Shown here: positions 23,101-50,849 of the stretch, one piece after another
Numbering within the stretch: position 1 is the stretch's first letter
How the letters are laid out: every line of letters starts with the position of its first letter
DNA from: Cheilinus undulatus
Lineage: Eukaryota > Chordata > Actinopteri > Labriformes > Labridae
DNA length: 64,000 bases
Assembly: GCF_018320785.1 (NCBI RefSeq)
Contig: NC_054888.1
Location: forward strand, 27,100,287 to 27,164,286
Direction of reading: 5' to 3'
Notes under the pieces: model-generated
The model's input: only the letters and a program-made list of their open reading frames with translations
Databases searched by the model: none
What the model was told of the DNA's origin: nothing
Program-made: the position numbers and the translations under genes

Positions 23101-24028
23101 ATATAAAAATAAACTAGCATTTTTCCCTCCCCTATTATTTTTATTAATTATCTATATAAAAATAAACTAGCATTTTTCCTCCCCTATTATTTTTATCTAT
23201 TATCTATATAAAAATAAACTAGCATTTTTCCTCCCCTATTATTTTTATCTATTATCTATATAAAAATAAACTAGCATTTTTTCCTCTCCTATTATTTTTA
23301 TTAATTATCCATATAAAAATAAACTAGCATTTTTTCCTCCCCTATTATTTTTATTAATTATCTATATAAAAATAAACTAGCATTTTTCCTCCCCTATTAT
23401 TTTTATCTATTATCTATATAAAAATAAACTAGCATTTTTCCTCCCCTATTATTTTTATCTATTATCTATATAAAAATAAACTAGCATTTTTTCCTCTCCT
23501 ATTATTTTTATTAATTATCCATATAAAAATAAACTAGCATTTTTCCTCCCCTATTATTTTTATCTATTATCTATATAAAAATAAACTAGCATTTTTCCTC
23601 CCCTATTATTTTTATCTATTATCTATATAAAAATAAACTAGCATTTTTTCCTCCCCTATTATTTTTATTAATTATCTATATAAAAATAAACTAGCATTTT
23701 TCCTCCCCTATTATTTTTATTAATTATCTATATAAAAATAAACTAGCATTTTTCCTCCCCTATTATTTTTATCTATTATCTATATAAAAATAAACTAGCA
23801 TTTTTCCTCTCCTATTTTTTTTATTAATTATCCATATAAAAATAAACTAGCATTTTTTCCTCCCCTATTATTTTTATTAATTATCTATATAAAAATAAAC
23901 TAGCATTTTTTCCTCCCCTATTATTTTTATTAATTATCTATATAAAAATAAACTAGCATTTTCCCTCCCCTATTATTTTTATTAATTATCTATATAAAAA
24001 TAAACTAGCATTTTTCCTCCCCTATTAT
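17180..24028. repeat. 52-bp AT-rich satellite array, about 130 copies
   Basis: Units of 52 bp (some 47-54) contain ATTATCTATATAAAAATAAA, CTAGCATTTTT, a C/T-rich spacer and CTATTATTTTTATT. Variant classes cluster: the AATTAACTAGC type at 17400-17700 and 18660-18930, and a C-run type (TTAGCATTCCCCCCCC) at about 17731, 18960 and 19786. This shows higher-order blocks. Most units carry AATAAA on the + strand. An ATTC microsatellite (24026-24050) abuts the right end. Confidence 0.97.
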
Positions 24029-24389
24029 TCATTCATTCATTCATTATTTATTTATTCAATCATTAGAATTTTTGAGGGACTTTAAACGTTCAAATCTCAG
24101 TTTGACTAGGAGAAGTCGCTGTTGTTTTTATTCAAAAGTCATAGAAATTATTTATCTTCTAATTTATTTATTCTAGTTGTCACAGCTGACTGGGTTTTTT
24201 TTTTTTGAATGAAGTTCTGGCTTTAAAAAAAACTAACTATAGACAGATAAGGAGCTGTGACTGTAGATTTATTTATTTATTCACCTTTTTAAAAACAACA
24301 TTTCTGTAAATATGTAGGTTAGTTTCCATCTGCAGCTCCTGGTCAAACGTTCAATTTACCAAAAAGAAAAAGAAAATATTAGAAGAAAA

Positions 24390-27300
24390 GGTCTGGACTG
24401 TAGTGGCCTGGACTCTGTAGCGGTCTGGACTCTGTAGCGGTCTGGACTGTAGCGGTCTGGACTCTGTAGTGGTCTGGACTCTGTAGTGGTCTGGACTCTG
24501 TAGTGGTCTGGACTGTAGCGGTCTGGACTCTGTAGCGGTCTGGACTGTAGCGGTCTGGACTCTGTAGTGGTCTGGACTCTGTAGTGGTCTGGACTGTAGC
24601 GGTCTGGACTCTGTAGCGGTCTGGACTGTAGCGGTCTGGACTCTGTAGCGGTCTGGACTCTGTAGCGGTCTGGACTGTAGCGGTCTGGACTCTGTAGTGG
24701 TCTGGACTCTGTAGTGGTCTGGACTCTGTAGTGGTCTGGACTGTAGCGGTCTGGACTCTGTAGCGGTCTGGACTGTAGCGGTCTGGACTCTGTAGTGGTC
24801 TGGACTCTGTAGTGGTCTGGACTGTAGCGGTCTGGACTCTGTAGTGGTCTGGACTGTAGCGGTCTGGACTGTAGTGGTCTGGACTCTGTAGTGGTCTGGA
24901 CTGTAGCGGTCTGGACTGTAGTGGTCTGGACTGTAGTGGTCTGGACTCTGTAGTGGTCTGGACTCTGTAGTGGTCTGGACTGTAGCGGTCTGGACTGTGG
25001 TCTGGACCCTGTAGCGGTCTGGACTCTGTAGCGGTCTGGACTCTGTAGCGGTCTGGACTGTAGCGGTCTGGACTCTGTAGCGGTCTGGACTCTGTAGCGG
25101 TCTGGACTCTGTAGCGGTCTGGACTCTGTAGCGGTCTGGACTGTAGTGGTCTGGACTGTAGCGGTCTGGACTCTGTAGCGGTCTGGACTGTAGTGGTCTG
25201 GACTGTAGCGGTCTGGACTCTGTAGTGGTCTGGACTCTGTAGTGGTCTGGACTCTGTAGCGGTCTGGACTCTGTAGCGGTCTGGACTGTAGCGGTCTGGA
25301 CTCTGTAGTGGTCTGGACTGTAGCGGTCTGGACTGTAGTGGTCTGGACTGTAGCGGTCTGGACTCTGTAGTGGTCTGGACTGTAGCGGTCTGGACTCTGT
25401 AGTGGTCTGGACTGTAGCGGTCTGGACTGTAGTGGTCTGGACTGTAGCGGTCTGGACTCTGTAGTGGTCTGGACTCTGTAGTGGTCTGGACTCTGTAGCG
25501 GTCTGGACTCTGTAGTGGTCTGGACTGTAGCGGTCTGGACTCTGTAGTGGTCTGGACTGTAGTGGTCTGGACTGTAGTGGTCTGGACTCTGTAGCGGTCT
25601 GGACTCTGTAGCGGTCTGGACTGTAGCGGTCTGGACTCTGTAGTGGTCTGGACTCTGTAGTGGTCTGGACTCTGTAGTGGTCTGGACTGTAGCGGTCTGG
25701 ACTCTGTAGCGGTCTGGACTGTAGCGGTCTGGACTCTGTAGTGGTCTGGACTCTGTAGTGGTCTGGACTGTAGCGGTCTGGACTCTGTAGTGGTCTGGAC
25801 TGTAGCGGTCTGGACTGTAGTGGTCTGGACTCTGTAGTGGTCTGGACTGTAGCGGTCTGGACTGTAGTGGTCTGGACTGTAGTGGTCTGGACTCTGTAGT
25901 GGTCTGGACTCTGTAGTGGTCTGGACTGTAGCGGTCTGGACTGTGGTCTGGACCCTGTAGCGGTCTGGACTCTGTAGCGGTCTGGACTCTGTAGCGGTCT
26001 GGACTGTAGCGGTCTGGACTCTGTAGCGGTCTGGACTCTGTAGCGGTCTGGACTCTGTAGCGGTCTGGACTCTGTAGCGGTCTGGACTGTAGTGGTCTGG
26101 ACTGTAGCGGTCTGGACTCTGTAGCGGTCTGGACTGTAGTGGTCTGGACTGTAGCGGTCTGGACTCTGTAGTGGTCTGGACTCTGTAGTGGTCTGGACTC
26201 TGTAGCGGTCTGGACTCTGTAGCGGTCTGGACTGTAGCGGTCTGGACTCTGTAGTGGTCTGGACTGTAGCGGTCTGGACTGTAGTGGTCTGGACTGTAGC
26301 GGTCTGGACTCTGTAGTGGTCTGGACTCTGTAGCGGTCTGGACTCTGTAGCGGTCTGGACTGTAGCGGTCTGGACTCTGTAGTGGTCTGGACTGTAGCGG
26401 TCTGGACTGTAGTGGTCTGGACTGTAGCGGTCTGGACTCTGTAGTGGTCTGGACTCTGTAGTGGTCTGGACTCTGTAGCGGTCTGGACTCTGTAGTGGTC
26501 TGGACTGTAGCGGTCTGGACTCTGTAGTGGTCTGGACTGTAGTGGTCTGGACTGTAGTGGTCTGGACTCTGTAGCGGTCTGGACTCTGTAGCGGTCTGGA
26601 CTGTAGCGGTCTGGACTCTGTAGTGGTCTGGACTCTGTAGTGGTCTGGACTGTAGCGGTCTGGACTCTGTAGTGGTCTGGACTGTAGCGGTCTGGACTGT
26701 AGTGGTCTGGACTCTGTAGTGGTCTGGACTGTAGCGGTCTGGACTCTGTAGTGGTCTGGACTCTGTAGTGGTCTGGACTCTGTAGCGGTCTGGACTCTGT
26801 AGCGGTCTGGACTGTAGCGGTCTGGACTCTGTAGTGGTCTGGACTCTGTAGTGGTCTGGACTGTAGCGGTCTGGACTCTGTAGCGGTCTGGACTGTAGCG
26901 GTCTGGACTCTGTAGTGGTCTGGACTCTGTAGTGGTCTGGACTGTAGCGGTCTGGACTCTGTAGCGGTCTGGACTCTGTAGCGGTCTGGACTGTAGCGGT
27001 CTGGACTCTGTAGTGGTCTGGACTCTGTAGTGGTCTGGACTCTGTAGTGGTCTGGACTGTAGCGGTCTGGACTCTGTAGCGGTCTGGACTGTAGCGGTCT
27101 GGACTCTGTAGTGGTCTGGACTCTGTAGTGGTCTGGACTGTAGCGGTCTGGACTCTGTAGTGGTCTGGACTGTAGCGGTCTGGACTGTAGTGGTCTGGAC
27201 TCTGTAGTGGTCTGGACTGTAGCGGTCTGGACTGTAGTGGTCTGGACTGTAGTGGTCTGGACTCTGTAGTGGTCTGGACTCTGTAGTGGTCTGGACTGTA

Positions 27301-30300
27301 GCGGTCTGGACTGTGGTCTGGACCCTGTAGCGGTCTGGACTCTGTAGCGGTCTGGACTCTGTAGCGGTCTGGACTGTAGCGGTCTGGACTCTGTAGCGGT
27401 CTGGACTCTGTAGCGGTCTGGACTCTGTAGCGGTCTGGACTCTGTAGTGGTCTGGACTGTAGCGGTCTGGACTCTGTAGCGGTCTGGACTGTAGTGGTCT
27501 GGACTGTAGCGGTCTGGACTCTGTAGTGGTCTGGACTCTGTAGTGGTCTGGACTCTGTAGCGGTCTGGACTCTGTAGCGGTCTGGACTGTAGCGGTCTGG
27601 ACTCTGTAGTGGTCTGGACTGTAGCGGTCTGGACTGTAGTGGTCTGGACTGTAGCGGTCTGGACTCTGTAGTGGTCTGGACTCTGTAGCGGTCTGGACTC
27701 TGTAGCGGTCTGGACTGTAGCGGTCTGGACTCTGTAGTGGTCTGGACTGTAGCGGTCTGGACTGTAGTGGTCTGGACTGTAGCGGTCTGGACTCTGTAGT
27801 GGTCTGGACTCTGTAGTGGTCTGGACTCTGTAGCGGTCTGGACTCTGTAGTGGTCTGGACTGTAGCGGTCTGGACTCTGTAGTGGTCTGGACTGTAGTGG
27901 TCTGGACTGTAGTGGTCTGGACTCTGTAGCGGTCTGGACTCTGTAGCGGTCTGGACTGTAGCGGTCTGGACTCTGTAGTGGTCTGGACTCTGTAGTGGTC
28001 TGGACTCTGTAGTGGTCTGGACTGTAGCGGTCTGGACTCTGTAGCGGTCTGGACTGTAGCGGTCTGGACTCTGTAGTGGTCTGGACTCTGTAGTGGTCTG
28101 GACTGTAGCGGTCTGGACTCTGTAGTGGTCTGGACTGTAGCGGTCTGGACTGTAGTGGTCTGGACTCTGTAGTGGTCTGGACTGTAGCGGTCTGGACTGT
28201 AGTGGTCTGGACTGTAGTGGTCTGGACTCTGTAGTGGTCTGGACTCTGTAGTGGTCTGGACTGTAGCGGTCTGGACTGTGGTCTGGACCCTGTAGCGGTC
28301 TGGACTCTGTAGCGGTCTGGACTCTGTAGCGGTCTGGACTGTAGCGGTCTGGACTCTGTAGCGGTCTGGACTCTGTAGCGGTCTGGACTCTGTAGCGGTC
28401 TGGACTCTGTAGCGGTCTGGACTGTAGTGGTCTGGACTGTAGCGGTCTGGACTCTGTAGCGGTCTGGACTGTAGCGGTCTGGACTCTGTAGTGGTCTGGA
28501 CTCTGTAGTGGTCTGGACTGTAGCGGTCTGGACTCTGTAGTGGTCTGGACTGTAGCGGTCTGGACTATAGTGGTCTGGACTCTGTAGTGGTCTGGACTGT
28601 AGCGGTCTGGACTGTAGTGGTCTGGACTGTAGTGGTCTGGACTCTGTAGTGGTCTGGACTCTGTAGTGGTCTGGACTGTAGCGGTCTGGACTGTGGTCTG
28701 GACCCTGTAGCGGTCTGGACTCTGTAGCGGTCTGGACTCTGTAGCGGTCTGGACTGTAGCGGTCTGGACTCTGTAGCGGTCTGGACTCTGTAGCGGTCTG
28801 GACTCTGTAGCGGTCTGGACTCTGTAGCGGTCTGGACTGTAGTGGTCTGGACTGTAGCGGTCTGGACTCTGTAGCGGTCTGGACTGTAGTGGTCTGGACT
28901 GTAGCGGTCTGGACTCTGTAGTGGTCTGGACTCTGTAGTGGTCTGGACTCTGTAGCGGTCTGGACTCTGTAGCGGTCTGGACTGTAGCGGTCTGGACTCT
29001 GTAGTGGTCTGGACTGTAGCGGTCTGGACTGTAGTGGTCTGGACTGTAGCGGTCTGGACTCTGTAGTGGTCTGGACTCTGTAGCGGTCTGGACTCTGTAG
29101 CGGTCTGGACTGTAGCGGTCTGGACTCTGTAGTGGTCTGGACTGTAGCGGTCTGGACTGTAGCGGTCTGGACTGTAGCGGTCTGGACTCTGTAGTGGTCT
29201 GGACTCTGTAGCGGTCTGGACTCTGTAGCGGTCTGGACTCTGTAGTGGTCTGGACTGTAGTGGTCTGGACTCTGTAGTGGTCTGGACTGTAGTGGTCTGG
29301 ACTGTAGTGGTCTGGACTCTGTAGCGGTCTGGACTCTGTAGCGGTCTGGTCTGTAGCGGTCTGGACTCTGTAGTGGTCTGGACTCTGTAGTGGTCTGGAC
29401 TCTGTAGCGGTCTGGACTGTAGTGGTCTGGACTGTAGCGGTCTGGACTGTAGCGGTCTGGACTCTGTAGTGGTCTGGACTCTGTAGTGGTCTGGACTCTG
29501 TAGCGGTCTGGACTGTAGTGGTCTGGACTGTAGCGGTCTGGACTGTAGTGGTCTGGACTCTGTAGTGGTCTGGACTGTAGCGGTCTGGACTGTAGTGGTC
29601 TGGACTGTAGTGGTCTGGACTCTGTAGTGGTCTGGACTCTGTAGTGGTCTGGACTGTAGCGGTCTGGACTGTGGTCTGGACCCTGTAGCGGTCTGGACTC
29701 TGTAGCGGTCTGGACTCTGTAGCGGTCTGGACTGTAGCGGTCTGGACTCTGTAGCGGTCTGGACTCTGTAGCGGTCTGGACTCTGTAGCGGTCTGGACTC
29801 TGTAGCGGTCTGGACTGTAGTGGTCTGGACTGGAGCGGTCTGCACTCTGGAGCGGTCTGGACTGTAGTGGTCTGGTCTGTAGCGGTCTGGACTCTGTAGT
29901 GGTCTGGACTCTGTAGCGGTCTGGACTCTGTAGCGGTCTGGACTCTGTAGCGGTCTGGACTGTAGCGGTCTGGACTCTGTAGTGGTCTGGACTGTAGCGG
30001 TCTGGACTGTAGTGGTCTGGACTCTCTCGCGGTCTGGACTCTGTAGAGGTCTGGACTCTGTAGCGGTCTGGACTCTGTAGCGGTCTGGACTGTAGCGGTC
30101 TGGACTCTGTAGTGGTCTGGACTGTAGCGGTCTGGACTGTAGTGGTCTGGACTGTAGCGGTCTGGACTCTGTAGTGGTCTGGACTCTGTAGTGGTCTGGA
30201 CTCTGTAGCGGTCTGGACTCTGTAGTGGTCTGGACTGTAGCGGTCTGGACTCTGTAGTGGTCTGGACTGTAGTGGTCTGGACTGTAGTGGTCTGGACTCT

Positions 30301-33039
30301 GTAGCGGTCTGGACTCTGTAGCGGTCTGGACTGTAGCGGTCTGGACTCTGTAGTGGTCTGGACTCTGTAGTGGTCTGGACTGTAGCGGTCTGGACTCTGT
30401 AGTGGTCTGGACTGTAGCGGTCTGGACTGTAGCGGTCTGGACTCTGTAGCGGTCTGGACTGTAGCGGTCTGGACTCTGTAGTGGTCTGGACTCTGTAGTG
30501 GTCTGGACTCTGTAGCGGTCTGGACTCTGTAGCGGTCTGGACTGTAGCGGTCTGGACTCTGTAGTGGTCTGGACTGTAGTGGTCTGGACTGTAGTGGTCT
30601 GGACTCTGTAGTGGTCTGGACTGTAGTGGTCTGGACTGTAGCGGTCTGGACTCTGTAGTGGTCTGGACTCTGTAGTGGTCTGGACTGTAGCGGTCTGGAC
30701 TCTGTAGTGGTCTGGACTCTGTAGTGGTCTGGACTGTAGTGGTCTGGACTGTAGCGGTCTGGACTCTGTAGCGGTCTGGACTGTAGTGGTCTGGACTGTA
30801 GCGGTCTGGACTGTAGCGGTCTGGACTGTGGTCTGGACTGTAGTGGTCTGGACTCTGTAGCGGTCTGGACTGTAGCGGTCTGGACTCTGTAGTGGTCTGG
30901 ACTGTAGCGGTCTGGACTGTAGTGGTCTGGACTGTAGCGGTCTGGACTCTGTAGTGGTCTGGACTCTGTAGTGGTCTGGACTCTGTAGCGGTCTGGACTC
31001 TGTAGTGGTCTGGACTGTAGCGGTCTGGACTCTGTAGTGGTCTGGACTGTAGTGGTCTGGACTGTAGTGGTCTGGACTCTGTAGAGGTCTCGACTCTCTA
31101 GCGCTCTGGTCTGTAGCGGTCTGGACTCTGTAGTGGTCTGGACTCTGTAGTGGTCTGGACTGTAGCGGTCTGGACTCTGTAGTGGTCTGGACTGTAGCGG
31201 TCTGGACTGTAGCGGTCTGGACTCTGTAGTGGTCTGGACTGTAGCGGTCTGGACTCTGTAGTGGTCTGGACTCTGTAGTGGTCTGGACTCTGTAGCGGTC
31301 TGGACTCTGTAGCGGTCTGGACTGTAGCGGTCTGGACTCTGTAGTGGTCTGGACTGTAGTGGTCTGGACTGTAGTGGTCTGGACTCTGTAGTGGTCTGGA
31401 CTGTAGTGGTCTGGACTGTAGTGGTCTGGACTCTGTAGTGGTCTGGACTGTAGTGGTCTGGACTGTAGCGGTCTGGACTGTAGCGGTCTGGACTCTGTAG
31501 CGGTCTGGACTGTAGCGGTCTGGACTCTGTAGTGGTCTGGACTGTAGCGGTCTGGACTGTAGTGGTCTGGACTCTGTAGTGGTCTGGACTCTGTAGCGGT
31601 CTGGACTGTAGCGGTCTGGACTCTGTAGCGGTCTGGACTGTAGCGGTCTGGACTCTGTAGTGGTCTGGACTGTAGTGGTCTGGACTGTAGCGGTCTGGAC
31701 TCTGTAGCGGTCTGGACTGTAGCGGTCTGGACTCTGTAGTGGTCTGGACTGTAGCGGTCTGGACTGTAGCGGTCTGGACTCTGTAGTGGTCTGGACTGTA
31801 GCGGTCTGGACTCTGTAGTGGTCTGGACTCTGTAGTGGTCTGGACTCTGTAGCGGTCTGGACTCTGTAGTCCGGACTGTAGAGGTCTGGACTCTGTAGTG
31901 GTCTGGACTGTAGTGGTCTGGACTGTAGTGGTCTGGACTCTGTAGTGGTCTGGACTGTAGTGGTCTGGACTGTAGCGGTCTGGACTCTGTAGCGGTCTGG
32001 ACTCTGTAGTGGTCTGGACTCTGTAGTGGTCTGGACTGTAGTGGTCTGGACTGTAGCGGTCTGGACTCTGTAGTGGTCTGGACTGTAGCGGTCTGGACTC
32101 TGTAGTGGTCTGGACTGTAGTGGTCTGGACTGTAGCGGTCTGGACTCTGTAGCGGTCTGGACTGTAGTGGTCTGGACTGTAGAGGTCTGGACTCTGGTCT
32201 GGACTCTGTATCTGGACTGTAGTCTGGACTCTGTAGTGGTCTGGACTGTAGTGGTCTGGACTGTAGTGGTCTGGACTGTAGTGGTCTGGACTGTGGTCTG
32301 GACTGTAGTGGTCTGGACTCTGTAGCGGTCTGGACTGTAGCGGTCTGGACTCTGTAGTGGTCTGGACTGTAGCGGTCTGGACTGTAGTGGTCTGGACTCT
32401 GTAGTGGTCTGGACTGTAGCGGTCTGGACTCTGTAGTGGTCTGGACTCTGTAGTGGTCTGGACTGTAGTGGTCTGGACTGTAGCGGTCTGGACTGTAGCG
32501 GTCTGGACTCTGTAGCGGTCTGGACTGTAGCGGTCTGGACTCTGTAGTGGTCTGGACTGTAGCGGTCTGGACTGTAGTGGTCTGGACTGTAGCGGTCTGG
32601 ACTCTGTAGCGGTCTGGACTGTAGTGGTCTGGACTGTAGCGGTCTGGACTGTAGCGGTCTGGACTCTGTAGCGGTCTGGACTGTAGCGGTCTGGACTCTG
32701 TAGTGGTCTGGACTGTAGCGGTCTGGACTGTAGTGGTCTGGACTGTAGCGGTCTGGACTGTAGCGGTCTGGACTCTGTAGCGGTCTGGACTGTAGCGGTC
32801 TGGACTCTGTAGTGGTCTGGACTGTAGTGGTCTGGACTGTAGTGGTCTGGACTGTAGTGGTCTGGACTGTGGTCTGGACTGTAGTGGTCTGGACTCTGTA
32901 GCGGTCTGGACTGTAGCGGTCTGGACTCTGTAGTGGTCTGGACTGTAGCGGTCTGGACTGTAGTGGTCTGGACTGTAGCGGTCTGGACTCTGTAGTGGTC
33001 TGGACTGTAGCGGTCTGGACTGTAGTGGTCTGGACTCTG
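24390..33039. repeat. 15/17-bp satellite array, roughly 540 copies
   Basis: Built from a 15-bp unit (GTAGYGGTCTGGACT) and a 17-bp unit (the same plus CT). The main variation is C or T at one CpG position (GTAGCGG or GTAGTGG). A rare marker, CTGTGGTCTGGACCCTG, recurs near 24994, 25941, 27311, 28276, 28691 and 29670, showing higher-order amplification of about 0.4-1.4 kb. The right third (after about 29820) has more irregular units. No stop codon exists in the unit on the minus strand, which explains long spurious frames there. Confidence 0.97.
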
Positions 33040-33103
33040 ATTAAATCCTATTCATCCAGGTTAAAAATGCTCTGAACTGAAATAAAGTGAGGCGTCTCTC
33101 CAG

Positions 33104-33293
33104 GTTAGACCTGTGGCCGTCAGAGTGCTCCATCTAGTGGCCTGATGGTTGAACTACAGCAGCAGGTCTCTGCCTGAGTCTGCTCTGAAACATCCAGGCT
33201 GTAGATTTTCTGGCTGCAGAGCTGAAATAACAGGATTAGCTGTAATGTTCAGGTCTCTCTCTGCAGATAAAGAGTGTGAGCAGAACCAGCAGC
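33104..33293 (+). promoter_or_regulatory. Conserved upstream module and 5' UTR of gene B
   Basis: CTCCATCTAGTGGCCTGATG and TTGAACTACAGCAGC match the upstream block of gene C (CTGCCGCCTAGTGGACTGAT, AGAACTACAGCAGC at 53665-53712). A CT-rich tract ending CTCTGCAG at 33266 is the probable acceptor of the 5' UTR intron. Then 27 nt of untranslated exon, including AACCAGCAGC, lead to the ATG at 33294. Confidence 0.45.
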
Positions 33294-36200
33294 ATGGACC
33301 AGCGAGAGGACAAAGAGAGGGAAGGAGCTCAGAGGTAAGAGAAGGTTTTCACTTATTCATTTATTTATTGTGAGTTTTGGCCCTTTATTTCTGCTGTAGA
33401 GGCACTAAGCCTGCGTGAAGCAGGGATGGGAACTCAGGTTTGAGACTCAGTCCTGAGTCTCACTAAGGTCCAGGATTTAGAGCCGCCCTTCAGAAGTGGA
33501 AATACTCAGGTTTGTGGCTGCAGTGAAGTCCTCTGTGTTTAATATCAGTGGGCTCAGATCTACTGATTATGTCACCAAATCAATCCCTCCCAACAACACG
33601 TCACGGTTGTAACCCCCGTGAATACAGGGGCTGTTGTTACGGCGATAACTGGAGAGTTTTAACTCAGAGAAGTGTTTTTGGGTCTGTTAGCATCTTAGCT
33701 GGACTTTAGCCCCGCCCTCTCAACAGGTGAGATTTATGAGCTGCTGTAGTTCTTCATCAGGCATTTCTAAGTAATCCTTCCTTCATAGAAAGTCCACATG
33801 ACTTTATCCTGAGGTGCAGAACTGTACTGAAAGGCGCTGCGGCGATGTCCAATGAAACACATCCTTCTACTTAGCGAGCACCTACGGCGAACGTAACGCT
33901 TGTTTAAAGGTCAAAGGTCACCACAGGTCACACATGATTACAGACGCTGAGCCAGAGCGGGGCGGAACGGGCTACGAAAGCAAACAGGAGAGCCTCATGA
34001 ACTGATCTCTAGCGTTAAGACCGGTCCAAAGACCGGTTCATGCTGCATTTTCACCGATCCAGGACTCGGCGTACCGATGCACTCAGACCGCTGAGGTCAA
34101 GATCAGGTAACCGATCCATATCGGATTATCTTTCCACCACTAGTCTTAATAATTCCTCCATGCTCTGATAGATAGTTCATGTTCATCTCCTACCTTTAAA
34201 TGATGCCCTTCTGTCCTGGACCACATAACCGACTGTGTTTCCAGGACTGAGTCGATGACGGGACACTAGACGGTACCACAGAGAATACTTCCTGTCCCTG
34301 TCCTTGGTCCTGACTGATAGACCTTCCTGTTGAAGGTCGAATCCTTAATCCAGCCTTTGCTGTGCCTTATTGCCTCTTCATTCAGACTGTTCACACTCCT
34401 GCTCTGTCACTTCCTGTTCTGTTGTCGACTTCCTCAGTCGTCTGTAGTGTCCTCTGCTGTTGTTTAGCAGATACTTCCTTGTACATGGCGAACCACAAAA
34501 CAGCCGCTGTTAAGAATGGCCGTTCATTGTCCTGCATGTGTCCCAGGGTTTCTGGGTTCATGGGTCAGTGCTGTGGTCTAACTCTCCAGGATTCTTCCAC
34601 AGAGTCGAGCGGGAGACCTCAGATGTTCCCAGTGGTCCGTCGGCCCAGCAGCATCAAGCAGAACTGGACTCCATATTCATGGTGTGTACATCTACAACAA
34701 TAGTCTCCATGTCCATGATCTCAGAGCTCTACATCACTGAGGGAGGGACTGAAGAGGTCAACCAGGAACACGAGGTCGGGCAGATTGAAGCAACATCCAG
34801 GAAACCACACAGACCAGAGACTACCATCAGACAGGAGGACATCTTTAAAGCTATAGCTGGTGGAGATGAACCAATCAGGACAGTGATGACGAAGGGCGTG
34901 GCTGGCATTGGGAAAACAGTCTTAACACAGAAGTTCACTCTGGACTGGGCTGAAGGCAAAGCCAACCAGGACATCCAGTTCACATTTCCATTCACTTTCA
35001 GAGAGCTGAATGTGCTGAAAGAGAAAGAGTTCAGCTTGGTGGAGCTCCTTCATCACTTCTTTACTGAAACCAAAGAAGCAGGACTCTGCAGGTTTGAGGA
35101 CTTCCAGGTGGTCTTCATCTTTGACGGTCTGGATGAGTGTCGGCTTCCTCTGGACTTCACCAACAATGAGATCCTGACTGATGTTAGCCAGTCCACCTCG
35201 GTGGATGTGCTGCTGACTAACCTCATCAGAGGAAACCTGCTTCCATCTGCTCGCCTCTGGATAACCACACGACCTGCAGCAGCCAATCAGATCCCTCCTG
35301 GGTGTGTTGACATGGTGACAGAAGTCCGAGGGTTTACTGATGCCCAGGAGGAGGAGTACTTCAGGAAGAGATTCAGAGATGAGAGGCAGGCCAGCAGAAT
35401 CATCTCCCACATCAAGACCTCCAGAAGCCTCCAGATCATGTGCCACATCCCGGTCTTCTGCTGGATCACTGCTACAGTTCTGGAGGATCTGCTGAACACT
35501 GATGATGAAGGGGAGCTACCAAAGACCCTGACTGAGATGTTCATCCACTTCCTGGTGGTTCAGACCAAACTGAAGAACATCAAGTATGATGGAGGAGCTG
35601 AGACTGATCCAAACTGGAGTCCAGAGAGCATGAAGATGATCCGGTCTCTGGGTAAGCTGGCTTTTGAGCAGCTGCAGAAAGGAAACCTGATCTTCTATGA
35701 ACCAGACCTGATGGAGTGTGGCATCGATATCAGAGAAGCCTCCTGGTACTCAGGAGTGTTCACACAGGTCTTCATAGAGGAGAAAGGACTGTTTCAGGAC
35801 CAGGTTTATTGTTTCGTCCATCTGAGCTTTCAGGAGTTTCTGGCTGCTCTTCATGTCCATCTGACCTTCACCAACTCTGGAGTCAATCTGCTGTCAGAAG
35901 AACCATCAACCTCCCAGACACAGTTCTACCAAACAGCCGTGGACCAGGCCCTGCAGAGTCCAAATGGACACCTGGACCTGTTCCTCCGCTTCCTCCTGGG
36001 TCTTTCACTGCAGACCAACCAGGATCTTCTGAGAGGTCTGCGGATGCAGACAGGAAGTAGCTCAGAGACTGATCAGGACAACGTGGAGTACATCAGGGAG
36101 AAGATTGAAGAGAGCCTCAGTCCAGAAAAAAGCATCAATCTTCTTCACTGCCTGAACGAGCTGAAGGACCATTCTCTGGTGGACCAGATCCAGCAGTACC

Positions 36201-38238
36201 TTGGTTCAGGAAAACTTCATCGACAGAAACTGTCTCCTGGTCAGTGGTCAGCTCTGGTCTTCATCTTGCTCTCATCAGAGAAAGATCTGGATGTCTTTGA
36301 CCTGAGGAAGTACTATGCTTCTGAGGAGGCTCTCCTGAGGCTGCTGCCAGTGGTCAGAGCCTCCAAGAAAGCTGTGTATGTAAAACGTAATCATTAATAC
36401 TTTCTAAGCCTGTCACTGTCTGAATAAATAACTGTTAACTAGCTTTCTTACTGCTGTCTCTCCAGGCTGAGTGGATGTAATCTCTCAGAAGAAAGCTGTA
36501 AAGCTCTGTCATCAGTCATCAGCTCCCAGTCCTCCAATCTGAGGGAGCTGGACCTGAGTAACAACGACCTGCAGGACTCAGGAGTGGAGATCTTGTCTGA
36601 GGGACTGGGGAGTCCAAACTGTTTACTGGAAACCCTCAGGTCAGAGCCCCACTCTTGGTGTTTCTTCTTCTCTTGTGGGTCTTTTCTTATTCAAACATGA
36701 TCCGCTATGTTTGTTGTTCGGTGTCTTTTTTAGGCTGTCAGGCTGTCTGATCAGTGATGATGCGTGTTCCTTTCTGGCGGCAACTCTGACGTCCAACCCC
36801 TCCCACCTGAGAGAACTAGATCTGAGCTACAACCACCTGAGTGAATCAGGAGTGGAGCAGCTGTCACAGAAACGAGAGGATCCACGCTGGAGACTGGACA
36901 CTCTCAGGTATGTAGAGGCCTGCTGCAATCAGGAACATCAGTCTGGTTAGAAAATAAGCGCTGAAGAACTTAGAGTAAACGCCACTGCAGCTTCTCTCAC
37001 CTTTCTGAGTCCAGTAACCCGTGACTTACCAACCACTGACTGGGTGACAAGGTTGACTTGCTCCACCTGATAATGAGCCTTAAATGACTGAATGAATGCA
37101 TGATTGTAAGTCAAGCCCACTGAGTAGCACTCAGGCATGATGGGGGAGGCTCTTCCTGAGTCTCAGGATGTGTGGCCTGCCGTCGGCAAACAATCCATTG
37201 CTGAGGTGGATCACCCTCGCTGGAAAGACCAGACTCCATCTTCAGCATATCAGCAGGTCAACCCAGACATCCCTCTTCCCCGAAACGTTTTCCAGTTCCT
37301 CCTGAGGGATTCCCAGGCATTCCCAGGCCAGATGGAATACATAGTCCCTCCAGCGAGTTCTGGGTCTGCCTCAGGGTCTTCTCCCATGCCCAGAAGTCCT
37401 GTCCTGTGTCGTGTTACGTAGGATATCAGCTGGCTAAGATCTGAAAGAGTTTAACTTGATGTGTCTGAACCCTCTTCTCCATCCAGGTTGGAGCCTGCTG
37501 GAGTCCAGTGGTTGAGACCAGGTCTAAGGAAATGTAAGTGTGTTTTAATCTGATTCATGATGATAAAGTGGATCAGTAATAGTCGTACTTAAAGCCTAGG
37601 CATTCAGACTAATCAGTGACCAAAATATGAGTGTGTAACTGCTGCTGATCTCTTCATCAGATTCTTGTGAACTCCAGCTCGACCCAAACACCATGTACAG
37701 ACAGATCCAACTGTCCGACAACAACAGGAAGATGACCTATGTGGAGGAGGACCAGCCGTATCCTGATCATCCAGACAGGTTTGAGGAGTGGCGTCAGGTG
37801 CTGTGTAGAGATGGTCTGACTGGTCGCTGTTACTGGGAGGCGGACTGCCTCGGATACGTGGATGTGTCGGTGAGTTACAGAGGAATCAGCAGGAGAGGAA
37901 ACAGAGACGACTGTTCGTTTGGAAGGAACGATCAGTCCTGGAGTCTCCACTGCACCAGTGATGGTCGCTTTTGTGTGTGGCACAACAACAAAGGAACCAT
38001 CTCCTACTCCTCCGCCTCCCTGGCCTCATCCGCCCCCTTCCACTCCTTAGGCCCGGTCTCTAACAGAGTAGCCGTGTATGTGGACCATCCTGCTGGCATC
38101 TTGTCCTTCTACATCGTCTCCTCTGACACACTGGTCCACATCCACACCTTCAACACCACATTCACTGAGCCGGTCTATCCTGGGTTTAGTTTTGGGTTCA
38201 GTCTTCCTGGTTCATCAATGTCTCTGTGTTCCCTGTAG
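33294..38238 (+). CDS. NLR gene B: N-terminally reduced FISNA-NACHT-LRR-B30.2 receptor
   Basis: Coding exons 33294-33334, 34603-36375, 36466-36639, 36734-36907, 37487-37533 and 37661-38238 total 2787 nt, in frame, 928 residues. The first exon ([13 protein letters not shown], phase 2) joins the linker of the second exon directly; no cassette exon is visible in intron 33335-34602. The helical domain exon and the first half of FISNA are missing because of a deletion that fused linker exon, a scrap of intron and the NACHT exon in one frame. Walker A is at residues 112-119. NACHT, HD2, two full LRR exons and B30.2 are intact, so the product could still bind nucleotide and ligand while lacking an N-terminal effector part. 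That suggests a decoy or a regulatory receptor, but this is inference. A pseudogene is not favoured because every frame is open. Confidence 0.83.
33335..34602 (+). other. Intron 1 of the gene B coding region
   Basis: No cassette exon can be found: acceptor-like sites (for example TTTCCAG at about 34243) lead to early stops in phase. It contains a palindromic GACTCAGTCCTGAGTC near 33450, typical of fish repeat debris, and GATCCATATCGGATTATC near 34120. Nothing else is recognised. Confidence 0.5.
34603..36375 (+). CDS. Gene B fused linker-FISNA-NACHT exon
   Basis: 34603-34681 is the linker exon ([18 protein letters not shown]) found as a separate exon in gene C at 59897-59975. Where gene C has donor GTAAGT, gene B has GTGTGT and reads on through about 37 nt related to the start of the intron ([12 protein letters not shown]). 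It then enters the middle of FISNA at [12 protein letters not shown]. Relative to gene C about 1.9 kb is missing, including the 223-nt helical exon. The frame stays open and in phase. Walker A is at 34895-34918. Local differences from A and C include [10 protein letters not shown] and [14 protein letters not shown]. Confidence 0.85.
36466..36907 (+). CDS. Gene B two LRR exons
   Basis: Exons 36466-36639 and 36734-36907 are each exactly 174 nt, phase 2 to 2. The first is nearly identical to that of A and C ([24 protein letters not shown]). The second ([31 protein letters not shown], ending [10 protein letters not shown]) is a full-length repeat, unlike gene A. The intervening intron differs from the A/C version, so the A/C resemblance stops here. 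Intron 36908-37486 shows nothing recognisable. Confidence 0.9.
37487..38238 (+). CDS. Gene B linker exon and PRY-SPRY (B30.2) exon
   Basis: Exon 37487-37533 ([14 protein letters not shown]) and last exon 37661-38238. The latter encodes [54 protein letters not shown] and [12 protein letters not shown], ending SLCSL and a TAG stop. It keeps the family LDPNT motif that gene A has changed to LDLNT. A three-codon loss (no TGK after the SSDT turn) shortens one loop relative to gene A. Confidence 0.92.
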
Positions 38239-40899: not shown

Positions 40900-43162
40900 T
40901 GTTTAAGGCAAAAGGATGACTTAAAATTTGAAATGGTGCACCTAAAATATCTAAATGTGAGATAAAGGTCGAAATAAGGAGTTGAAAAGGTCAAACTATT
41001 AGATAAAAAGCCAAAATTATACATTGAAAAGGTCAAACAATTAGATAATAAATCGAAATTATACACCGTAAAGGTCAAACTATGAGTTAAAAACAAATAA
41101 AATAAATTGACGGCGAAAAAATGAAACAAAAAGTCAGAATAATACATTGAAAATGGGCAAAATATGAAAAAGAAGTCAAAATAATGAATGTAAAAGGTTA
41201 AAATATGAAATAAAAGTCTAAATAATGAATGTAAAAGGTTAAAATATGAAATAAAAGTCCAAATAATGAATGTAAAAGGTTAAAATATGAAATAAAAGTC
41301 CAAATTATGAATGTAAAAGGTTAAAATGTGAAATAAAAGTCTAAATAATGAATGTAAAAGGTTAAAATATGAAATAAAAGTCCAAATAATGAATGTAAAA
41401 GGTTAAAATATGAAATAAAAGTCCAAATAATTAATGTAAAAGGTTAAAATATGAAATAAAAGTCCAAATTATTAATGTAAAAAGTTAAAATATGAAATAA
41501 AAGTCTAAATAATGAATGTAAAAGATTAAAATATGAAATAAAAGTCCAAATAATGAATGTAAAAGGTTAAAATATGAAATAAAAGTCCAAATAATGAATG
41601 TAAAAGGTTAAAATATGAAATAAAAGTCCAAATAATTAATGTAAAAGGTTAAAATATGAAATAGAAGTCAAAATAATTAATGTAAAAGGTTAAAATATGA
41701 AATAAAAGTCCAAATAATTAATGTAAAAAGTTAAAATATGAAATAAAAGTCCAAATAATGAATGTAAAGGTTAAAATATGAAATAAAAGTCCAAATAATG
41801 AATGTAAAAGGTTAAAATATGAAATAAAAGTCCAAATAATGAATGTAAAAGGTTACAATATGAAATAAAAGTCTAAATAATGAATGCAAAAGGTTAAAAT
41901 ATGAAATAAAAGTCCAAATAATGAATGTAAAAGGTTTAAATATGAAATAAAAGTCCAAATAATGAATGTAAAAGGTTAAAATATGAAATAAAAGTCCAAA
42001 TAATTAATGTAAAAGGTTAAAATATGAAATAAAAGTCTAAATAATGAATGTAAAAGGTTAAAATATGAAATAAAAGTCCAAATAATTAATGTAAAAGGTT
42101 AAAATATGAAATAAAAGTCCAAATAATGAATATAAAAGGTTAAAATATGAAATAAAAGTCTAAATAATTAATGTAAAAGGTTAAAATATGAAATAAAAGT
42201 CCAAATAATTAATGTAAAAGGTTAAAATATGAAATAAAAGTCCAAATAATTAATGTAAAAGGTTAAAATATGAAATAAAAGTCCAAATAATTAATGTAAA
42301 AGGTTAAAATATGAAATAAAAGTCTAAATAATGAATGTAAAAGGTTAAGATATGAAATAAAAGTCAGAATAATTAATGTAAAAGGTTAAAATATGAAATA
42401 AAAGTCTAAATAATGAATGTAAAAGGCTAAAATATGAAATAAAAGTCTAAATAATGAATGTAAAAGGTTACAATATGAAATAAAAGTCTAAATAATGAAT
42501 GTAAAAGGCTAAAATATGAAATAAAAGTCTAAATAATGAATGTAAAAGGCTAAAATGTGAAATGAAAGTCTAAATAATGAATGTAAAAGGCTAAAATGTG
42601 AAATAAAAGTCTAAATAATGAATGTAAAAGGCTAAAATGTGAAATAAAAGTCTAAATAATGAATGTAAAAGGCTAAAATGTGAAATAAAAGTCTAAATAA
42701 TGAATGTAAAAGGCTAAAATGTGAAATAAAAGTCTAAATAATGAATGTAAAAGGCTAAAATATGAAATAAAAGTCTAAATAATGAATGTAAAAGGCTAAA
42801 ATGTGAAATAAAAGTCTAAATAATGAATGTAAAAGGTTAAAATATGAAATAAAAGTCTAAATAATGAATGTAAAAGGCTAAAATGTGAAATAAAAGTCCA
42901 CAGAATAGATTGAAGTTATAATTGTCCCATGAAAAATGAAAATATGAAATGAAAAGACAAATTAACTTCTTTTTCTCTGATTATTTTTACTCTTCATTCC
43001 TATGAATGAAGGATGATAACATCAGGGTTACCTTTACATTTTTAAACTGGAGGAAATCTGCTGACCTCATATTTTAGGGCCAGTTATAATAATAGGATAT
43101 GACCGGGTGTAACTGTACCACGGGCCGGATTTGGCCCACGGGCCATGAGTTTGACACCCGTG
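40900..43162 (-). mobile_element. hAT-like non-autonomous element containing the 41-bp array
   Basis: On the minus strand the element starts at 43162 with CACGGGTGTCAAACTCATGG, then CCCGTGGGCCAAATCCGGCC. Subterminal sequence (AGGAATGAAGAGTAAAAATA, TTAATTTGTCTTTTCATTTC) matches the copy at 50850-52105 in the opposite orientation. The interior is an expanded 41-bp array. The far end is not recognised, so the left boundary is approximate. Confidence 0.55.
41155..42900. repeat. 41-bp minisatellite, about 42 copies
   Basis: Tandem units of 41 bp: GAAATAAAAGTCYAAATAAT then KAATGTAAAAGGTTAAAATAT. The right part is dominated by a GGCTAAAATGTG variant, the left by GGTTAAAATATG, indicating block-wise spread. 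More diverged relatives of the unit occur at 40915-41154. Most units carry AATAAA on the + strand. Confidence 0.95.
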
Positions 43163-44127: not shown

Positions 44128-47100
44128 ATAAACCAGTGTAAATATATGTAATAAACCAGTGTAAATATATGTAATAAACCAGTGTAAATATATTTAATAA
44201 ACCAGTGTAAATATATTTAATAAACCAGTGTAAATATATTTAATAAACCAGTGTAAATATATTAAATAAACCAGTGTAAATATATTAAATAAACCAGTGT
44301 AAATATATTTAATAAACCAGTGTAAATATATTTAATAAACCAGTGTAAATATATTTAATAAACAAGTGTAAATATATGTAATAAACCAGTGTAAATATAT
44401 TTAATAAACCAGTGTAAATATATTTAATAAACCAGTGTAAATATATTTAATAAACCAGTGTAAATATATTTAATAAACCAGTGTAAATATATTTAATAAA
44501 CCAGTGTAAATATATTTAATAAACCAGTGTAAATATATTAAATAAACCAGTGTAAATATATTTAATAAACCAGTGTAAATATATTTAATAAACCAGTGTA
44601 AATATATTTAATAAACAAGTGTAAATATATGTAATAAACCAGTGTAAATATATTTAATAAACCAGTGTAAATATATTTAATAAACCAGTGTAAATATATT
44701 TAATAAACCAGTGTAAATATATTTAATAAACAAGTGTAAATATATGTAATAAACCAGTGTAAATATATTTAATAAACAAGTGTAAATATATGTAATAAAC
44801 CAGTGTAAATATATTTAATAAACCAGTGTAAATATATTTAATAAACCAGTGTAAATATATTTAATAAACCAGTGTAAATATATTTAATAAACAAGTGTAA
44901 ATATATGTAATAAACCAGTGTAAATATATTTAATAAACAAGTGTAAATATATTTAATAAACAAGTGTAAATATATTTAATAAACCAGTGTAAATATATTT
45001 AATAAACCAGTGTAAATATATTTAATAAACCAGTGTAAATATATTTAATAAACAAGTGTAAATATATTAAATAAACCAGTGTAAATATATTTAATAAACC
45101 AGTGTAAATACATTAATTAAACAAGTGTAAATATATTTAATAAACCAGTGTAAATATATTTAATAAACCAGTGTAAATATATTTAATAAACCAGTGTAAA
45201 TATATTTAATAAACCAGTGTAAATATATTTAATAAACAAGTGTAAATATATTAAATAAACCAGTGTAAATATATTTAATAAACCAGTGTAAATATATTAA
45301 ATAAACCAGTGTAAATATATTTAATAAACCAGTGTAAATATATTTAATAAACCAGTGTAAATATATTTAATAAACCAGTGTAAATATATTTAATAAACCA
45401 GTGTCAATATAATTAATAAACCAGTTTAAATATATTTAATAAACCAGTGTCAATATTTTTAATAAACCAGTGTAAATATTTTCAATAAACCAGTGTAAAT
45501 ATATTTAATAAACCAGTGTAAGAATATTAAATAAACCAGTGTAAATATATTAAATAAACCAGTGTAAATATATTTAATAAACCAGTGTAAATATATTTAA
45601 TAAACCAGTGTAAATATATTTAATAAACCAGTGTCAATATAATTAATAAACAAGTGTAAATATATTTAATAAACCAGTGTAAATATATTTAATAAACCAG
45701 TGTCAATATAATTAATAAACCAGTTTAAATATATTAAATAAACCAGTGTCAATATATTAAATAAACCAGTGTAAAAATATTTAATAAACCAGTGTAAATA
45801 TATTAAATAAACCAGTGTAAATATATTAAATAAACCAGTGTAAAAATATTTAATAAACCAGTGTAAATATATTAAATAAACCAGTGTAAATATATTTAAT
45901 AAACCAGTGTAAATATATTAAATAAACCAGTGTAAATATATTTAATAAACCAGTGTAAATATATTAAATAAACCAGTGTAAATATATTAAATATACCAGT
46001 GTAAATATATTAAATAAACCAGTGTAAATATATTAAATAAACCAGTGTAAATATATTAAATATACCAGTGTAAATATATTAAATAAACCAGTGTAAATAT
46101 ATTAAATAAACCAGTGTAAATATATTAAATAAACCAGTGTAAATATATTAAATAAACCAGTGTAAATATATTAAATAAACCAGTGTAAATATATTTAATA
46201 AACCAGTGTAAATATATTAAATAAACCAGTGTAAATATATTAAATAAACCAGTGTAAATATATTAAATAAACCAGTGTAAATATAATTAATAAACAAGTG
46301 TAAATATATTTAATAAACAAGTGTCAATATATTTAATAAACCAGTGTCAATATTTTTAATAAACCAGTGTAAATATTTTCAATAAACCAGTGTTAATATA
46401 TTTAATAAACCAGTGTAAATATATTAAATAAACCAGTGTATATATATTGAATAAACCAGTGTCAATATATTTAATAAACCAGTTTCAATATATTTAATAA
46501 ACCAGTGTATATATATTGAATAAACCAGTGTAAATATATTGAATAAACCAGTGTCAATATATTTAATAAACCAGTTTCAATATATTTAATAAACCAGTGT
46601 CAATATATTTAATAAACCAGTGTAAATATATTTAATAAACCAGTGTAAATATATTAAATAAACCAGTGTAAATATATTAAATAAACCAGTGTAAAAATAT
46701 TTAATAAACCAGTGTAAATATATTAAATAAACCAGTTTCAATATATTTAATAAACCAGTGTCAATATATTTAATAAACCAGTGTAAATATATTGAATAAA
46801 CCAGTGTCAATATATTTAATAAACCAGTTTCAATATATTTAATAAACCAGTGTCAATATATTTAATAAACCAGTGTAAATATATTTAATAAACCAGTGTA
46901 AATATATTTAATAAACCAGTTTCAATATATTTAATAAAACAGTTTAAATATTTAATAATAGTGTAAATATACCAATAAACCAGTGTAAATATATTTAATA
47001 AACCAGTGTAAATATATTAAATAAACCAGTGTAAATATATTTAATAAACCAGTGTAAATATATTAAATAAACCAGTGTAAATATATTTAATAAACCAGTG

Positions 47101-50100
47101 TAAATATATTAAATAAACCAGTGTAAATATATTGAATAAACCAGTGTCAATATATTTAATAAACCAGTTTCAATATATTTAATAAACCAGTGTCAATATA
47201 TTTAATAAACCAGTGTAAATATATTTAATAAACCAGTGTAAATATATTAAATAAACCAGTGTAAATATATTAAATAAACCAGTGTAAATATATTTAATAA
47301 ACCAGTGTAAATATATTAAATAAACCAGTGTAAATATATTTAATAAACCAGTGTAAATATATTGAATAAACCAGTGTTAATATATTTAATAAACCAGTGT
47401 AAATATAATTAATAAACCAGTTTAAATATATTTAATAAACCAGTGTAAATATATTTAATAAACCAGTGTAAATATATTAAATAAACCAGTGTAAATATAT
47501 TAAATAAACCAGTGTAAATATATTTAATAAACCAGTGTAAATATATTAAATAAACCAGTGTAAATATATTTAATAAACCAGTGTAAATATATTAAATAAA
47601 CCAGTGTAAATATATTTAATAAACCAGTGTAAATATATTGAATAAACCAGTGTTAATATATAATAAAAATAAACCAGTGTAAATATATTAATAAACCAGT
47701 TTAAATATATTTAATAAACCAGTGTAAATATATTTAATAAACCAGTGTAAATATATTTAATAAACCAGTGTAAATATATTTAATAAACCAGTGTATCAAT
47801 ATATTTAATAAACCAGTGTTAAATATATTTAATAAACCAGTGTTCAAATATATTTAATAAACCAGTGTAAATATATTTAATAAACCAATAAAGCTGTAAA
47901 TATATTAAATAAACCAGTGTAAATATATTTAATAAACCAGTGTAAATATATTAAATAAACCAGTGTAAATATATTTAATAAACCAGTGTTAAATATATTT
48001 AATAAACCAGTGTTCAATATATTTAATAAACCAATAAAGTGTAAATATATTAATAAACCAGTGTTCAATATATTTAATAAACCAGTGTAAATATATTTAA
48101 TAAACCAGTGTAAATATATTTAATAAACCAGTGTAAATATATTAAATAAACCAGTGTAAATATATTTAATAAACAGTGTAATATATTTAATAAACCAGTG
48201 TAAATATATTAATAAACCAGTGTTAAATATATTTAATAAACCAGTGTAAATATATTAAATAAACCAGTGTAAATATATTTAATAAACCAGTGTAAATATA
48301 TTAAATAAACCAGTGTAAATATATTTAATAAACCAGTGTAAATATATTAAATAAACCAGTGTAAATATATTTAATAAACCAGTGTAAATATATTAAATAA
48401 ACCAGTGTAAATATATTTAATAAACCAGTGTAAATATATTGAATAAACCAGTGTTAATATATTTAATAAACAAGTGTAAATATAATTAATAAACAAGTGT
48501 CAATATATTTAATAAACCAGTGTCAATATTTTTAATAAACCAGTGTAAATATTTTCAATAAACCAGTGTTAATATATTTAATAAACCAGTGTAAATATAT
48601 TAAATAAACCAGTGTATATATATTGAATAAACCAGTGTCAATATATTTAATAAACCAGTTTCAATATATTTAATAAACCAGTGTCAATATATTTAATAAA
48701 CCAGTGTAAATATATTTAATCAATAGTGTAAATATATTTAATAAACCAGTGTAAATATATTGAATAAACCAGTGTTAATATATTTAATAAACCAGTGTAA
48801 ATATAATTAATAAACCAGTTTAAATATATTTAATAAACCAGTGTCAATATTTGTAATAAACCAGTGTAAATATTTTCAATAAACCAGTGTAAATATATTA
48901 AATAAACCAGTGTATATATATTGAATAAACCAGTGTTAATATATTTAATAAACCAGTGTAAATATATTTAATAAACCAGTGTAAATATATTTAATAAACC
49001 AGTGTAAAAATATTAAATAAACCAGTGTAAATATATTTAATAAACCAGTGTAAATATATTAAATAAACCAGTGTAAAAATATTAAATAAACCAGTTTCAA
49101 TATATTTAATAAACCAGTGTAAATATATTTAATAAACCAGTGTAAATATATTTAATAAACCAGTGTAAATATATTAAATAAACCAGTGTAAATATATTTA
49201 ATAAACCAGTGTAAATATATTAAATAAACCAGTGTAAATATATTTAATAAACCAGTGTAAATATATTAAATAAACCAGTGTAAATATATTAAATATACCA
49301 GTGTAAATATATTAAATAAACCAGTGTAAATATATTAAATAAACCAGTGTAAATATATTAAATAAACCAGTGTAAATATATTTAATAAACCAGTGTAAAT
49401 ATATTAAATAAACCAGTGTAAATATATTAAATAAACCAGTGTAAAAATATTTAATAAACCAGTGTAAATATATTAAATAAACCAGTGTAAATATATTTAA
49501 TAAACCAGTGTAAATATATTAAATAAACCAGTGTAAATATATTTAATAAACCAGTGTAAATATATTAAATAAACCAGTGTAAATATATTAAATAAACCAG
49601 TGTAAATATATTAAATAAACCAGTGTAAATATATTTAATAAACCAGTGTAAATATATTAAATAAACCAGTGTAAATATATTAAATAAACCAGTGTAAATA
49701 TATTTAATAAACCAGTGTAAATATATTAAATAAACCAGTGTAAATATATTAAATATACCAGTGTAAATATATTAAATAAACCAGTGTAAATATATTAAAT
49801 AAACCAGTGTAAATATATTTAATAAACCAGTGTAAATATATTAAATAAACCAGTGTAAATATATTTAATAAACCAGTGTAAATATATTAAATAAACCAGT
49901 GTAAATATATTTAATAAACCAGTGTAAATATATTAAATAAACCAGTGTAAATATATTGAATAAACCAGTGTCAATATATTTAATAAACCAGTTTCAATAT
50001 ATTTAATAAACCAGTGTCAATATATTTAATAAACCAGTGTAAATATATTTAATAAACCAGTGTAAATATATTTAATAAACCAGTGTAAATATATTAAATA

Positions 50101-50704: not shown

Positions 50705-50849
50705 TCTTAGTGGCCTATTTTATAGTATTAAATATTTTCAGTCTCTCTTAAATCTCCTCAACGTCAGAGTCCTGCTGTGTTCAGTAAAGACATTTTTGGA
50801 GTCTTTAGTCTCTAAACTAACACTAGAACTGATCAGTAATATTCTAGTT

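Follow-up and report, generated by a model that had tools for sequence, protein, structure and literature searches.

How can an NLR gene lose the exon upstream of its FISNA domain together with the start of that domain and keep an open reading frame, and what would its product still do? This question is raised by gene B, one of three related NLR genes (A, B and C, all on the plus strand) in a 64,000-nucleotide stretch of the Cheilinus undulatus genome (C24:27100287-27164286). This whole stretch is called the window, and all coordinates below refer to it. Gene B spans 33.3-38.2 kb of the window and its anatomy is directly visible there: a former linker exon, the first bases of the following intron and the 3' part of the FISNA-NACHT exon form a single fused exon. 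This fusion is real in the present assembly and without a second case among the copies scored; it constitutes an unusual variant. The sequence evidence is in line with an in-frame exon fusion by deletion, which would have taken the upstream exon along with the first 40% of FISNA.

Loss of the upstream exon and of the first part of FISNA

When the three genes were analyzed with Pfam, the FISNA match extended over profile positions 1-72 of 72 in genes A and C, but only over positions 31-72 in gene B. The gene B match reached 57.6 bits (cut-off 28.1), but it covers only positions 30/31-72 of 72. Gene B is without the first 29 or 30 of the 72 FISNA positions and without the exon upstream of FISNA.

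The genome (1.17 Gb, 46 contigs) was searched for further copies. For FISNA, 150 of 169 candidates were scored. Here, we found that gene B alone starts at profile position 30, and that all other matches start at position 1, 2 or 7. It can be seen that 147 of the 150 begin by position 7 and reach position 70 or beyond, and two others end early, at positions 54 and 47. A query across the junction (34560-34730; 40 of 49 candidates scored) matched over its full length only itself. The other 39 of the 40 scored matches are linker-type and stop by query base 143 (34702). With the large exon as query, 40 of 199 candidates were scored. No description of a half-FISNA exon fusion was found among titles and abstracts, which cover only part of the literature.

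The exon of the kind lost from gene B is present in both neighbors, and these copies serve for comparison only:

7733-7938, plus strand: exon of gene A, 53% identical to the gene C exon
61431-61652, plus strand: exon of gene C, weak PYRIN likeness in its family

A genome search for this effector-type exon (E 0.01, 100 of 100 candidates scored) yielded 98 matches, with two exons each split in two. Of the 150 FISNA exons, 90 have such an exon on their own strand at most 6 kb upstream, and among the 75 with the best scores the number is 70; none was detected for the other 60 of the 150, gene B included. Because divergent versions would escape the search, 90 of 150 is a lower bound. The PYD-like exon of gene C had no match in 33335-34602. 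In the same interval, no match with an E value below 0.7 was obtained with four cassette queries (three from gene A, one from gene C), in agreement with the original prediction that all cassette exons are gone from gene B. When 33041-34602 was compared with 36 paralogous loci fetched from the genome and with genes A and C, no homology was observed at E 1e-4, the fetched loci extending only a few kb upstream.

The identity of the lost exon is less clear. In genes A and C, no Pfam model exceeded its cut-off over this exon. Among 23 family members, PYRIN was the commonest sub-threshold match (10/23, best E 0.013), but single members matched unrelated families slightly better (DUF4763, E 0.0076; Npa1, E 0.011). 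A profile of the exon compared with solved structures gave nothing under E 0.6. Thus, a PYD-like nature of the lost exon is weakly indicated by its sequence and unproven, and its designation as effector is likewise weakly supported. The original prediction had stated that the effector exon and half of FISNA were removed. The loss of an upstream exon stands, but the FISNA loss amounts to 29-30 of 72 positions (about 40%) and the word effector is to be read with the reservation just given. As a separate observation, paralog L038 carries upstream of its FISNA exon a short remnant of the PYD-like exon, which seems to represent a second, separate route of loss.

Exon structure and reading frame of gene B

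The coding sequence of gene B (join 33294-33334, 34603-36375, 36466-36639, 36734-36907, 37487-37533, 37661-38238) comprises 928 codons with zero internal stops. Its elements are as follows:

33267-33334, plus strand: first coding exon, ATG at 33294, 13 residues, ends in phase 2; gene C has a weak relative of 14 residues at 53876 (E 0.03)
34603-36375, plus strand: fused exon of 1773 nt, open in frame, with phase 2 at either end; it joins linker, retained intron and the 3' portion of the FISNA-NACHT exon
34603-34681, plus strand: former linker exon, ends ATG/GTGTGT in phase 0, 65% protein identity to the gene C linker
34682-34700, plus strand: first 19 nt of the linker intron, kept and read as coding sequence, identical to the gene A intron at 16/19 and to the gene C intron at 15/19 positions
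34701-34723, plus strand: junction stretch, either a weak match to the FISNA exon of gene C or filler (shuffle P 0.021 vs. gene C, 0.11 vs. gene A)
34721-34849, plus strand: remaining FISNA, profile positions 30-72 (31-72 by Pfam)
34877-35383, plus strand: NACHT (PF05729, E 2.4e-34), Walker A GVAGIGKT at 34895-34918
35633-35815, plus strand: winged helix NOD2_WH (PF17779, E 4e-17)
35819-36187, plus strand: HD2 helical domain (PF17776, E 3.8e-34)
36466-36639, plus strand: LRR exon 1, open in frame, named from sequence and position
36734-36907, plus strand: LRR exon 2, open in frame, named from sequence and position
37487-37533, plus strand: short exon ahead of B30.2, open in frame
37661-38238, plus strand: B30.2 (PRY-SPRY) exon including the stop codon (PF13765, E 1.2e-17; PF00622, E 5.3e-9)

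The fused exon is in phase with both neighboring exons, and all exon ends used carry GT and AG. Thus, gene B shows neither the frame damage nor the splice site damage by which a pseudogene would be recognized. One open exon of 1773 nt, made of linker, intron and NACHT sequence in the right phase on both sides, had been predicted originally and is borne out by the 928-codon join. The same applies to the retention of ATPase, LRR and B30.2, which is seen by Pfam for B30.2 and for NACHT with its Walker A motif, and by frame and sequence for the LRR exons.

Linker donor and size of the deletion

For comparison of the linker region, the 36 fetched paralogs were combined with genes A, B and C to give 39 copies. 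These are the best matches to gene B and its neighbors and not a random sample, and one copy on C40, listed in the exon search, was left out of the 36. The linker donor was readable in 34 copies; four of the 39 loci gave no linker match and one match stopped short. GTGTGT was found in 28 of the 34, GTATGT and GTGAGT in two each, GTAAGT in one (gene C) and GTCTGT in one (gene A). The sequence ATG/GTGTGT occurs in 26 of the 28 GTGTGT linkers, gene B included, and an effector-type exon lies downstream of each of the other 27. Thus, the gene B donor is the usual one of its family. Its classification as decayed, originally proposed as a change from GTAAGT to GTGTGT, is ruled out, and GTAAGT is, among the readable copies, confined to gene C.

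We measured the distance between this donor and the FISNA exon in 33 copies: 21 fall at 563-568 nt, 5 at 425-520 nt and 7 at 1058-2919 nt (gene A, 431 nt; gene C, 1823 nt). We estimated the loss as this distance plus about 115 nt of lost FISNA exon minus the 19 nt kept. This calculation gave about 0.5 kb relative to gene A, about 0.66 kb relative to the commonest layout and 1.9 kb relative to gene C. A general 1.9-kb deletion, originally claimed relative to both genes A and C, is therefore ruled out; the figure holds against gene C, but goes back to the long linker-to-effector distance of that gene. In gene C, this distance (59975-61431) is 1456 nt vs. 120-127 nt in 26 of the 33 copies, probably because of an insertion.

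Chance and constraint

Joins were simulated with random breakpoints, on the left within 60 nt of the linker intron start and on the right within the initial 150 nt of the FISNA exon (9000 each). Open in-frame joins were obtained in 2052 of 9000 cases on gene C (23%) and in 2627 of 9000 on gene A (29%). With 23-29% of random joins being open, an open join alone is weak evidence, and we rejected the idea that the open frame is surprising in itself. The intactness of the remainder of the gene carries more weight.

From the codon counts across the compared copies and from the NACHT tree, L018, L041, L042 and L043, which carry stops or frameshifts, were left out. A three-way A/B/C count assigned 50 nonsynonymous and 37 synonymous changes to the gene B branch (ratio 0.40; Fisher P 3e-5). 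None of these 87 changes is a stop; 3.0 stops are expected with an assumed 4:1 transition weight (P(none) 0.045). Changes private to gene B number 6 nonsynonymous and 9 synonymous (6N/9S), vs. 156N/89S summed across 34 other open copies (P 0.0014 vs. sites, 0.097 vs. the other copies). Constraint on gene B is thus not weaker than on its relatives. On these codon counts, the rest of gene B shows apparent purifying selection, a signal blunted by gene conversion and by the uncertain timing of the changes.

History of gene B

In a tree of 35 NACHT exons, gene B is sister to A+C. The set B+A+C and the pair A+C both have support 100/99, and the upstream neighbor L009 branches next to A+B+C. Among the copies compared, the gene B NACHT exon is closest to that of gene C (93% at best). 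On another contig lie L025 and L030, the best-scoring matches of the gene B linker (84.6% over 91 nt); gene C reaches 76% over 123 nt. Judged from these similarities, gene B may be a mosaic, in which the linker (34603-34700) is nearest L025/L030 and the NACHT exon nearest genes A and C, and its join may possibly stem from recombination instead of a plain deletion.

Functional consequences and alternative explanations

On balance, we consider it probable that gene B is an NLR-C (NLRC3-like) gene in which a deletion fused the linker to the NACHT exon, that this fusion is read through and that the product cannot signal alone. From the anatomy described above we infer the ancestral state, the splicing, the signaling defect and any role of gene B as follows. 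A deletion of about 0.5-0.7 kb would have taken the PYD-like exon, its two introns save some 19 nt, and FISNA up to position 29 or 30 of 72. The linker donor, still normal-looking, is most likely read through because its partner acceptor is gone, so that linker, intron scrap and NACHT sequence would form one coding exon. The resulting protein should still bind nucleotide and retain its sensing end. The missing FISNA positions 1-29 align to NLRP3 residues ~140-168 and cover loop 1. In NLRP3, deletion of residues 140-152 or changes of V144, F148 and I151 abolish activation, and loop 1 (151-163) orders and touches the neighboring subunit in the active form (PMC12134225). In NLRP6, no specks form upon infection when FISNA residues 108-129 or 108-193 are deleted (PMC12759077). 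The basic residues of this FISNA stretch are described as dispensable in one study (PMC12134225) and as needed in another (PMC12759077). No signaling of its own is expected of gene B, since it is without the N-terminal adaptor part and without the counterpart of NLRP3 ~140-168, and we regard it as probably signaling-dead. The likeliest effect, if any, would be passive competition for ligand or partners.

Several observations weigh against this interpretation. The intact donor at 34682 could be spliced instead of being read through, although joining to the next LRR exon breaks the frame. The gene A branch is without clear constraint in the three-way count (36N/14S, P 0.39), which indicates that the measure is noisy. 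Identical tracts of 315 nt between A and B and of 270 nt between B and C suggest recent exchange, so that gene B may owe its intact NACHT exon to borrowing and not to selection. Some changes counted for gene B may predate the deletion, and the counts cannot be separated into before and after. On the functional side, NLRP6 with the larger FISNA deletion is only partly impaired in autoactivation (PMC12759077), and NLRP3 lacking PYD and linker still makes a hexamer, so that oligomerization need not be lost (PMC13226650). Loss of the exon-3 linker is tolerated by NLRP3, but the construct retains the polybasic part of FISNA (PMC13226650). Finally, the gene B linker has an L-x-x-x-F spacing like that of the lost FISNA helix, at its place; to judge by this spacing, which may be due to chance, the linker might partly replace the helix.

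What else could gene B be? A young dead or dying gene, hit by a chance deletion too recent for stops to have accumulated and with a NACHT exon refreshed by gene conversion, is a possibility that we take seriously but hold to be doubtful. The frequency of open joins in the simulation and the identical tracts of up to 315 nt are in line with it, as are a working-type donor without its partner acceptor and 4 of 39 compared NACHT exons that are broken by stops or frameshifts. Broken copies are also common in zebrafish (nearly 10% premature stops, PMC11192531) and in the round goby (PMC6988351), and the FISNA start is absent from gene B alone among the 150 scored, which suggests that such a state is seldom kept. 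On the other hand, the entire 928-codon frame is open with GT/AG at the exon ends used, and the private changes are mostly synonymous (6N/9S). The original prediction named gene B a good candidate for a decoy or dominant-negative receptor; in our opinion, it is unlikely to be preserved in such a role, damping its full-length neighbors. Such a role would agree with the purifying selection signal and with retention of Walker A, NACHT, LRR exons and B30.2 after loss of the N-terminal part. The hexamer formed by NLRP3 without PYD and linker (PMC13226650) and zebrafish nlrc3-like, which has NACHT, lacks LRRs and acts as negative regulator (PMC9174460), point in the same direction. However, the lost FISNA part contacts the neighboring subunit in active NLRP3, so that co-assembly may fail (PMC12134225). 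A gene B subunit may thus not enter the active disc, which weakens the dominant-negative idea, and many NLR-C genes are without recognized effector (PMC11192531). A more specific variant, in which gene B is a selected half-FISNA receptor braking its neighbors and its symmetrical exon (phase 2 at both ends) can be skipped to give an in-frame LRR-B30.2 protein, strikes us as very unlikely.

Two further explanations concern the transcript and the assembly. There is, in our view, a small chance that the donor at 34682 remains in use and is spliced to another acceptor, or that transcripts leave out the fused exon. The gene B donor is the one usual in the family (28/34), and the sequence offers an in-frame intron of 45 nt (34682-34726, with its AG at 34725-34726). 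Without 34603-36375, exon 1 runs in frame into the LRR exons, which would yield an LRR-B30.2 protein. Against donor use, 45 nt is below every linker-to-effector distance measured (at least 86 nt, 33 copies), and when 34681 is joined to the LRR exon a stop follows at codon 45. An assembly error or a haplotype-specific allele appears to us slightly less likely still. Just ahead of gene B there are tandem repeats of 6.8 and 8.7 kb. The gene belongs to a family of closely related copies, and about 0.11 Mb separates it from the contig end. But the window is free of N, and a false join would be open and in frame only in about one case in four. In addition, the linker (84.6% at best) and the NACHT exon (93% at best) differ from every compared copy, so that the fused exon is no simple join of two such copies.

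Should the fused gene be expressed and maintained, it would provide a natural experiment on the role of the first FISNA part, with sensing and ATPase retained but without the piece that in NLRP3 is ordered on activation. If it is not kept, it would be one more loss within a fast-turnover family. Gene B illustrates that exon-wise NLR-C genes can lose modules through small in-frame deletions.

Setting of the locus

The window lies toward the end of a contig of 27249597 bases, and no ambiguous base (N) is found anywhere in it. Gene A has cassettes from about 5.5 kb and its NACHT exon from about 8071. Gene C has its start exon at about 53876 and its NACHT exon from about 61798, and it is cut by the window end. 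According to Pfam, FISNA, NACHT, winged helix and HD2 share one large exon in all three genes, and a PRY-SPRY exon is present in A and B.

A 17-nt unit repeated about 540 times makes up an 8.7-kb array (24390-33039), which stops about 230 bp 5' of the first coding exon of gene B. Since an acceptor-like AG precedes this exon, a 5' exon or promoter may sit beyond the array. Other long tandem arrays were found at 17186-24029 (52-nt unit), 41159-42900 (41-nt unit), 44128-50705 (23-nt unit) and 55200-59103 (40-nt unit). The last one lies inside gene C, between the start exon and its two nearer cassettes. These two cassette exons (59180-59282 and 59541-59633) are identical across 28 aligned residues, which points to a recent duplication, and a third, more diverged cassette of gene C is located at about 54700.

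Comparison with known NLR systems

In the account of zebrafish NLR-C genes (Howe et al. 2016, PMC4852459), a large exon encodes FISNA, NACHT and the helical part, and LRR and B30.2 reside on separate exons. The family of A, B and C resembles this NLR-C/NLR-B30.2 type in its large exon, its separate LRR and B30.2 exons, the N-terminal cassettes of the relatives and gene conversion (PMC4852459). For gene B, NACHT, winged helix and HD2 fall within one exon by Pfam, and LRR exons (frame and sequence) are followed by a B30.2 exon (Pfam). Unlike that type (PMC4852459), gene B has its large exon fused to the linker and is without the first 29 or 30 FISNA positions, the cassettes and the PYD-like exon. 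NLR-C genes without recognized effector are common in fish: in zebrafish, a PYD exon precedes 101 of 1513 FISNA-NACHT exons, and premature stops occur in nearly 10% of the sequences (PMC11192531). For the round goby, 25 PYRIN and 343 FISNA-NACHT sequences are reported, and the majority of the FISNA-NACHT ones contain frameshifts or a large insertion (PMC6988351). Unlike this general NLR-C picture, the near kin of gene B mostly retain the lost-type exon (70/75 best-scoring FISNA exons).

Within the goby genes, gene B shares with NLR-C group 5 the Walker A motif GVAG(V/I)GKT and the B30.2 typical of that group (PMC6988351). The group 5 exon ends in LPVVKASxKA, and the ten residues ending the gene B exon are close to this motif but have R for K. 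Group 5 genes typically carry a PYD (PMC6988351), whereas gene B is without a PYD-like exon, and its likeness to the group is one of motifs.

Among solved structures, mammalian NLRP3 is the best match of the FISNA-NACHT exon; it has a complete FISNA and a PYD, unlike gene B. NLRP3 is not known to carry a B30.2. A further system for comparison is zebrafish nlrc3-like, an incomplete fish NLR with NACHT that was identified by test as negative regulator of the Asc pathway (PMC9174460). This protein is without LRRs, whereas gene B, known from its sequence, retains both its LRR and its B30.2 exons.

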